Positions 36,303 to 38,088 of a stretch of 64,000 nt of DNA are shown in pieces. Each line of letters starts with the position of its first letter. Positions within the stretch are counted from its first letter, which is position 1. The DNA comes from Kitasatospora sp. NBC_00374 (GTDB lineage Bacteria > Actinomycetota > Actinomycetes > Streptomycetales > Streptomycetaceae). Where the stretch lies: the NCBI RefSeq assembly GCF_041434935.1, contig NZ_CP107964.1, positions 2,232,001-2,296,000 on the forward strand, given 5' to 3'. A program made the position numbers and the translations under genes. Below the pieces are notes generated by a model. The model searched no databases. It was not told where the DNA came from and saw only the letters and a list, made by a program, of their open reading frames with translations.

Positions 36303-36430
36303 GGCCCGATTCTCGCCGATCCGCCGGTGCGGTGCCTGGCCCTGCCAGGACCAGGCACCGCACCGCACCGGCCCGCCCGGCGGACGGAAATCGCACGGCC
36401 GCCGCCCCACCCGTGGGCTAACATCACCCC

Positions 36431-36478
36431 ATGACCACGTACCGGTTCCCCATGATGCCCCGCGACAGGGGCTGCTGA
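36431..36478 (+). CDS. 15-residue leader peptide with tandem Met codons
   Basis: The peptide is MTTYRFPMMPRDRGC, stop 36476-36478. TAACAT (36419-36424) is placed so that transcription would start on the A of the ATG, giving a leaderless message. Two consecutive Met codons (36452-36457) precede a hairpin and a methionyl-tRNA synthetase gene. This is the layout of ribosome-mediated attenuation: stalling at Met codons when charged tRNA-Met is low would alter folding downstream. No protein role is likely. Confidence 0.7.
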   Translation: MTTYRFPMMPRDRGC

Positions 36479-36499
36479 CACCGGACGTACCCACGTTTC

Positions 36500-36522
36500 C
36501 GAGGCCCCGAGTCGGGGCCTCG
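36500..36522 (+). terminator. Attenuator hairpin before the MetRS gene
   Basis: A perfect 10-bp stem (36500-36509 with 36513-36522) with a 3-base loop, no T tract. GCCCC in its 5' arm can alternatively pair with GGGGC at about 36468-36472 in the leader peptide's coding sequence, offering an antiterminator. Confidence 0.65.
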
Positions 36523-36567
36523 TCCGCGTTCGTGACCGGAGCCCCGCCGCACGGCAGGAGGTTTCCG

Positions 36568-38088
36568 ATGACCCGCCCGCGCTACTACGTCACCACCACC
36601 ATCCCGTACGTCAACGCCCGTCCCCATCTCGGCTTCGCGCTGGAGCTGGTGCAGGCGGACGTGCTGGCACGGCACCGCCGCGGCCGCGGCGACGAGGTCC
36701 GCTTCCTCAGTGGGACGGACGACAACTCGCTCAAGAACGTGCTGGCCGCCGAGGCCGAGGGAACGGACGTCCAGAGCTTCGTGGACCGCAACGCGGACGC
36801 CTTCGCCGCGCTGCGCGAGCCGCTGGCGCTCTCCTTCGACGACTTCGTCCGCACCAGCCGCGACCCCCGGCACCGGGCCGGGGTGGAGGAGCTCTGGCGC
36901 CGCTGCGAGGCCTCCGGCGACCTCTACCGCAAGCACTACGAGGGCCTGTACTGCGTCGGCTGCGAGCAGTTCTACACGCCTGCCGAACTGGTCGACGGCC
37001 GGTGCGCCGAGCACGGCACCGAGCCCCGGGCCGTCGCGGAGGAGAACTGGTTCTTCCGGCTGTCCCGGTACGCCGACACGCTGCGCGAACTGATCGCCGA
37101 CGGCCGGCTGCGGATCGAACCGGCCGCCCGGCGCAACGAGGTGCTCGGCCTGATCGACGGCGGTCTGCACGACTTCTCGATCTCCCGCTCGCACACCCGG
37201 GCCCGCGGCTGGGGCATCCCCGTCCCGGGCGATCCGGAGCAGGTGGTCTACGTCTGGTGGGACGCCCTGGGCAACTACGTCACCAGCCTCGGACTCGGCT
37301 CGGGCGCACCGGAGTTCGAGCGCTGGTGGGGCGGCGACGGGCAGCGGGTGCACCTGGTGGGCAAGGGCGTGCTGCGCTTCCACGCGGTGTACTGGCCGGC
37401 CATGCTGCTGTCCGCCGGGCTCCCGCTGCCGACCGATGTGCTGGTGCACGACTACCTGACCGTGGACGGCCGCAAGATCAGCAAGTCGGCGGGCACCACC
37501 GTCGACCCGACCGGGCTGGTCGCCGCGTACGGCACCGACGCGGTGCGCTGGTGGCTGCTGCGCGAGGTGCCCCGGGTCGGCGACGCGGACTTCACCGCCG
37601 ACCGGCTGGTCGCCCGGGCCGACGCCGACCTGGCGGGCGGCTTCGGCAACCTGGTCAACCGGGTGGTGACGATGGTCCACCGCTTCCGGGACGGGCGGGA
37701 GCCGGCCGGCGGTGCGGGCGGCGCCACGGCCGGCGGGCGGCTGTCCGAGGTGTGCCGGCGCGCGCCCGGGCTGGTCGACGCCGCCCTGGCCGGGCACGAC
37801 TTCCGCCGGGCCGCCGCCGCGGTGTGGACGGTGGTCGAGGAGGCCAACCGGACCATCGACGAGACCCGGCCCTGGGAACTCGCCCGGGCCGAACGGGCCG
37901 GTGACCCGGCGGCCGGCGCGCGGCTGGACACCGCCCTCGGCGAACTGCTGCACGCCTGCCGGACGCTGGGCCGGGAGCTGGCGCCGTTCCTGCCGGACGC
38001 CGCCGCCCTGATCGCCGGGCGCTGCACCGCGGTGGACGGCCTGCTGCCCGCCCCCGGGCCGCTGTTCCCCCGGATCGCGGGCGACTGA
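36568..38088 (+). CDS. metG: Methionyl-tRNA synthetase (short, stand-alone type)
   Basis: 506 residues with class I signatures: HIGH-type PYVNARPHLGF near the start, a zinc knuckle with Cys pairs (YCVGCEQFYTP ... GRC), KMSKS-type VDGRKISKSAGT, and a C-terminal helical anticodon-binding domain. It lacks the EMAP/oligomerisation tail. It charges tRNA-Met, or it may be a second copy used under stress, such as resistance to an inhibitor of the main enzyme. GCAGGAGG before ATG 36568 sets the start. It is preceded by a Met-codon leader peptide and hairpin, so expression is probably tuned by charged tRNA-Met. Confidence 0.9.
   Translation: MTRPRYYVTTTIPYVNARPHLGFALELVQADVLARHRRGRGDEVRFLSGTDDNSLKNVLAAEAEGTDVQSFVDRNADAFAALREPLALSFDDFVRTSRDPRHRAGVEELWRRCEASGDLYRKHYEGLYCVGCEQFYTPAELVDGRCAEHGTEPRAVAEENWFFRLSRYADTLRELIADGRLRIEPAARRNEVLGLIDGGLHDFSISRSHTRARGWGIPVPGDPEQVVYVWWDALGNYVTSLGLGSGAPEFERWWGGDGQRVHLVGKGVLRFHAVYWPAMLLSAGLPLPTDVLVHDYLTVDGRKISKSAGTTVDPTGLVAAYGTDAVRWWLLREVPRVGDADFTADRLVARADADLAGGFGNLVNRVVTMVHRFRDGREPAGGAGGATAGGRLSEVCRRAPGLVDAALAGHDFRRAAAAVWTVVEEANRTIDETRPWELARAERAGDPAAGARLDTALGELLHACRTLGRELAPFLPDAAALIAGRCTAVDGLLPAPGPLFPRIAGD

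Follow-up and report, generated by a model that had tools for sequence, protein, structure and literature searches.

In the ermA and ermC translational attenuators, it is macrolide-stalled ribosomes that are sensed, and the stalled ribosome sets a chain of alternative hairpins that ends on the Shine-Dalgarno sequence. The locus described here, which lies upstream of a methionyl-tRNA synthetase (MetRS) gene, likewise has a hairpin chain ending on the Shine-Dalgarno sequence but would respond to a hungry codon rather than to a macrolide stall. An auxiliary, indolmycin-resistant TrpRS gene was reportedly shown by Vecchione and Sello in 2010 to be attenuated experimentally. The Streptomyces auxiliary TrpRS gene (trpS, SCO3334; leader trpL2) resembles the present one in being a second synthetase copy behind a leaderless leader with cognate codon (PMC8079986) and in belonging to the WblC regulon (PMC7157823), membership that is predicted for the MetRS gene from its box. 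It differs in the codon (Trp) and the synthetase, and drug resistance has been demonstrated for trpS (PMC9437257).

In Streptomyces lividans, leader peptides with cognate codons precede further synthetase genes (thrL-thrS, alaL-alaS, and leuL2-leuS). Leaders have been described for alaS, trpS, and thrS, those of thrS and alaS from RNA-seq, and thrL and leuL2 are stated to be leaderless (PMC8079986). The thrL, alaL, and leuL2 leaders concern other amino acids, however, and that paper lists no leader for a MetRS gene. The metL leader ahead of metNIQ is also leaderless and has several Met codons, but it controls a Met importer, and its peptide, MSTTSDRTPATEATTTPGARCMCRRMCAF, is dissimilar to the MetRS leaders (PMC8079986). 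Leader-peptide attenuation of trpS and leuS in Streptomyces was predicted in a comparative survey from 2005, which found no conserved RNA structures upstream of methionine operons (PMC1262725). The preliminary description of the locus knew of no published case for a MetRS gene, and we found none in open-access papers either. A MetRS member of the synthetase leader attenuators thus appears to be new, and leader-peptide control in actinobacteria would extend to methionine and to MetRS.

The leader, its promoter, and the auxiliary MetRS gene

The window, a stretch of 64,000 nucleotides from Kitasatospora sp. NBC_00374, contains the following features of the transcription unit.

36387..36392, + strand: WblC/WhiB7 box GAAATC, an exact GAAAWY match (6/6), lying 3 nt ahead of the -35 position and 32 nt ahead of the -10
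36396..36401, + strand: putative weak -35 element CGGCCG, with a 17-nt spacer
36419..36424, + strand: -10 element TAACAT, with a 6-nt spacer to the leader ATG at 36431
36431..36478, + strand: leader frame MTTYRFPMMPRDRGC, leaderless, 15 codons, stop codon TGA at 36476-36478 (from sequence and frame conservation)
36452..36457, + strand: tandem regulatory Met codons ATGATG, the ATG being invariant in A1, with Met runs also in the unrelated leaders of group IV
36556..36561, + strand: Shine-Dalgarno sequence AGGAGG of the MetRS gene (from sequence)
36568..38088, + strand: auxiliary methionyl-tRNA synthetase, 506 aa (from TIGR00398 score, motifs, and paralogue comparison)

The elements named in the preliminary description were all found: a leaderless 15-codon frame with adjacent Met codons (36431-36478), a TAACAT placed to start transcription on its ATG (36419-36424, 6 nt before it), and a 10-bp hairpin (36500-36522, perfectly paired) followed by the MetRS gene, whose ATG at 36568 is 89 nt past the leader stop. 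Judging from the TANNNT spacing, transcription probably starts on the leader ATG itself. The reading given there, ribosome-mediated attenuation, is supported by what follows, while its picture was incomplete in that it missed the auxiliary nature of the MetRS, the arrangement of the RNA in six segments, and the WblC/WhiB7-type box.

The MetRS product scores 401 bits on the TIGR00398 metG profile (cut-off, 336) and carries the HLG and KISKS motifs. The genome also encodes a housekeeping-type paralogue (G000:C1:4965230), 42% identical to it; the MetRS of the window is a second, non-housekeeping copy. Since a close orthologue occurs in only ~8 or 9 of 70 genomes of the genus, it is an accessory gene. 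Nothing is conserved in the gene neighborhood around the orthologues, where the MetRS alone recurs, and so there is no link to a biosynthetic cluster. Across the genus, some genomes apparently have only a 43%-identical type of MetRS, some only a 30%-identical type, and most both, which suggests that the housekeeping MetRS has been repeatedly displaced.

The WblC box consensus GAAAWY and its spacing have been published for Streptomyces coelicolor, as has the -35 sequence TKGMNN of WblC promoters, and the regulon there includes the auxiliary synthetase genes alaS2, trpS, and thrS2 (PMC7157823). The promoter in the window has this layout (box 3 nt before the -35, spacer within 16 to 19 nt, and TANNNT), with a weak -35. 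The leader promoters share an A-run 29 to 32 bases upstream of the -10, in agreement with this box and its spacing. Of 72 promoters, 25 have a GAAAWY match of at least 5/6 at the spacing known for WblC, compared with a mean of 1.0 and a maximum of 4 at other positions. Among the proteins encoded in the genome is a WhiB protein whose AT-hook reads RGRPRK. The MetRS gene would fit a group of doubly controlled auxiliary synthetases, with a promoter layer and a leader layer; its dependence on WblC is predicted, and it is probably WblC-activated as well.

Conservation of the Met codons and covariation of the RNA

The orthologues compared comprise L004-L011 from the genus and L034-L113 from a wider set of genomes of bacteria and archaea. 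The actinobacterial MetRS clade has a Met-containing leader upstream in ~77 of its 82 rows (60 with MM), and a leaderless short frame with an internal MM lies upstream of 56 of 88 relatives. Such MM leaders were seen in none of 4,400 mononucleotide shuffles and upstream of none of 21 housekeeping metG genes; by these sequence comparisons, the Met leader ahead of the auxiliary MetRS is not due to chance. TANNNT occurs 5 to 8 nt ahead of a short leaderless frame in 74/88 relatives. With core and start picked regardless of frame, the start was in frame with the Met core, with no intervening stops, in 54 of the 55 loci with a recognizable core, at distances of 15, 18, 21, 24, 27, and 30 nt. In-frame starts at six distances are difficult to account for unless the frame is translated. 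In the set of 76 leaders, which by the rule of selection each have at least one internal Met, Met makes up 14% of internal codons; 60 have MM, and 14 a single internal Met. As in a ribosome-dependent attenuator, then, the short upstream frame is, judging from its conservation, under selection for translation and carries cognate codons.

The Met codons and the hairpin are kept in Streptomycetaceae, the family in which the preliminary description would have looked for them, and far beyond it, in Micromonosporaceae, Streptosporangiaceae, and Thermomonosporaceae as well as in Frankia, Nocardiopsis, Crossiella, and one Acidimicrobiales MAG. Four leader types, strongly clustered on the MetRS tree, can be told apart: MMPR (the majority), MMRP, a short VMMAP (Nonomuraea and relatives), and RMMM...SGLL (Frankia, Crossiella, Nocardiopsis, and the Acidimicrobiales MAG). 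The Met codons are common to otherwise dissimilar leaders (MMPR, RMMMFSGLL, and SRMTMSSGL). On the tree, no leader was found in Kutzneria, two other Pseudonocardiaceae, and the non-actinobacterial outgroup, a distribution that would fit a single ancient gain in Actinomycetota and few losses. In Kutzneria (L105, L107, and L109), the MetRS gene itself is apparently leaderless, its ATG being preceded at ~7 nt by TAGCCT; loss of the leader may have brought the promoter directly onto the gene. In leaders of the Frankia/Crossiella/Nocardiopsis type (L095, L092, L098, and L086), the Met codons lie within the 5' arm or loop of the first hairpin (for example, GGCCGC:GCGGCC and CCGGAUGAC:GUCGUCCGG), another layout with the same logic.

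The alignment resolves the RNA between the Met codons and the MetRS start into six segments, which can form 1:2, 3:4, and 5:6 or, alternatively, 2:3 and 4:5.

36457..36461, + strand: segment 1, GCCCC, which a ribosome stalling at the Met codons would mask (from the alignment)
36468..36472, + strand: segment 2, GGGGC, pairing with 1 or 3, which a ribosome that has reached the leader stop would mask
36500..36509, + strand: segment 3, CGAGGCCCCG, pairing with 4 or 2
36513..36522, + strand: segment 4, CGGGGCCTCG, pairing with 3 or 5
36523..36534, + strand: tail after hairpin 3:4, TCCGCGTTCGTG, with weak U content in the window
36537..36545, + strand: segment 5, CGGAGCCCC, pairing with 4 or 6
36560..36567, + strand: segment 6, GGTTTCCG, overlapping the Shine-Dalgarno sequence, abutting the ATG, and pairing with 5

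The hairpin of the preliminary description, CGAGGCCCCG-AGT-CGGGGCCTCG, is 3:4. In duplex energies, cognate segments paired better than segments swapped between loci for 3:4 (z -5.7), 4:5 (z -4.7), and 5:6 (z -5.1), and cognate was no better than swapped for the control pairs 2:5, 2:6, and 3:6. Pair counts also favor 3:4, 4:5, and 5:6. Representatives less than 75% identical were used, and relatedness between loci inflates such tests; within groups I to III, the values were z -5.5, -3.3, and -4.7, respectively. Support for 1:2 was obtained with the diverged Frankia/Nocardiopsis group included and was weak without that group. For 2:3, there was no covariation signal, and covariation is uninformative on this pair because both segments are nearly invariant; the pairing is proposed from complementarity only. 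A base pair flanking 4:5 also covaries: 33 of 53 loci retain it where 23 would be expected (P = 0.0004, all loci), as do 12 of 19 dereplicated loci (P = 0.04). Pairing of 5:6 is retained as CGGAGCC:GGUUCCG, CGAACCC:GGGUUCG, and CGUCUCCC:GGGAGACG, with compensatory changes between clades. By segments, spacing, and covariation, mutually exclusive structures are placed where a stall on the Met codons could select between them.

A proposed attenuator and its alternatives

We consider it highly probable that the element acts by ribosome-mediated attenuation, sensing charged Met-tRNA and controlling the auxiliary MetRS. Transcription would probably be raised by WblC/WhiB7 under translation stress. 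With Met-tRNA plentiful, the leading ribosome would reach the TGA and cover segment 2, so that 3:4 (a possible terminator) would form and 5:6 would pair over the Shine-Dalgarno sequence, leaving the gene off. With elongator Met-tRNA scarce, for instance under inhibition of the housekeeping MetRS, the ribosome would halt with an ATG in the A site, and its footprint, ~12 nt past the start of the A site, would cover segment 1 and leave 2 free. Because 1 and not 2 is covered, 2:3 would form before 4 is transcribed; 4:5 would then pair, freeing the Shine-Dalgarno sequence and turning the gene on. Ribosome footprint length is established, and the geometry can be read from it: with Met-8 (ATG at 36452) in the A site, cover extends to ~36463, which hides segment 1 and exposes segment 2, and segment 2 would be covered once the ribosome is at the leader stop codon. 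A classical attenuator has this layout.

Equilibrium folding did not reproduce the release. With the ribosome masked in, accessibility of the Shine-Dalgarno sequence did not differ (0.344 versus 0.339; P = 0.87), and forcing 2:3 cost a mean of 8.5 kcal/mol relative to 3:4; the switch would therefore need to be kinetic, occurring during transcription. Sequestration of the Shine-Dalgarno sequence by 5:6 is conserved, and its release was not seen in equilibrium folding. Also counting against the proposal are the 14 of 76 leaders with only one internal Met. Furthermore, the fMet of the leader itself comes from the same enzyme, so that severe starvation would block initiation on the leader too.

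Given attenuation at Met codons, a translational output, alone or together with termination, is fairly probable, and output by termination only is quite possible. The latter, spelled out as a 3:4 terminator with 2:3 as antiterminator and 5:6 as a separate, constitutive hairpin, has a smaller but real chance as an account of the locus. Hairpin 3:4 is GC-rich, has a short loop, and is the strongest hairpin in most loci; across relatives, U is enriched in the 12 nt that follow it (0.30 versus 0.08 in the next 12 nt); and in Streptomyces, the attenuators of trp and leuS have been described as terminator based (PMC1262725). However, the tail in the window is U-poor, the hairpin there having no proper U-run and receiving no terminator call, and termination alone leaves unexplained both the compensating changes that keep 4:5 and the conserved 5:6 over the Shine-Dalgarno sequence. 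That the leader is a general sensor of antibiotic-stalled ribosomes, and not of Met-tRNA, is improbable. The WblC-type box would suit such a role, and wblC itself is reported to be under attenuation mediated by a uORF (PMC7157823), but Met codons recur in leaders sharing little other sequence and the strong matches to the element that were inspected lie only ahead of a MetRS gene. A metabolite riboswitch or T-box with an incidental frame is a very improbable reading: structured, conserved RNA does precede an aminoacyl-tRNA synthetase gene, yet the frame and its Met codons are conserved and no Rfam family reaches its gathering score.

Attenuation at the Met codons has two unusual features, the 5:6 arm that covers the Shine-Dalgarno sequence and a sensor whose own initiation depends on Met-tRNA. 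We tentatively hypothesize, as a rather unlikely but specific version, a doubly gated emergency MetRS, in which WblC raises transcription under translation stress and the six-segment leader frees the Shine-Dalgarno sequence only on failed charging of Met-tRNA. If so, the gene would protect actinobacteria against natural MetRS inhibitors, and the sensor would be initiated by the very charging activity that it measures, so that it would respond only within a window of depletion. The combination of a WblC-type promoter with a codon-specific attenuator may be common to auxiliary synthetases. The element might serve as a reporter for inhibition of MetRS, a drug target, and it hints that soil may harbor natural inhibitors of MetRS.

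Specificity of the element

A covariance model of the element gave strong matches, under strict filters, in ~2% of the 394 genomes sampled from the class, and all strong matches inspected precede this MetRS. A plain DNA search for relatives returned two weak matches only, the rest being too diverged. Rfam, at gathering and relaxed thresholds, gave nothing relevant, including no match to a T-box or SAM riboswitch model; the best weak match was on the opposite strand.

A second covariance match in the genome, considered as a second Met element, was rejected, being the Thr leader before thrS. This leader (L144, minus strand, ~1641-1590; G000:C1, ~5909.7-5909.8 kb) is a leaderless, Thr-rich frame, MKRAAVVTTTPESVPAR and stop, followed by a strong hairpin, and is a homologue of S. 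lividans thrL. Its promoter has a GAAATG at about the WblC position.
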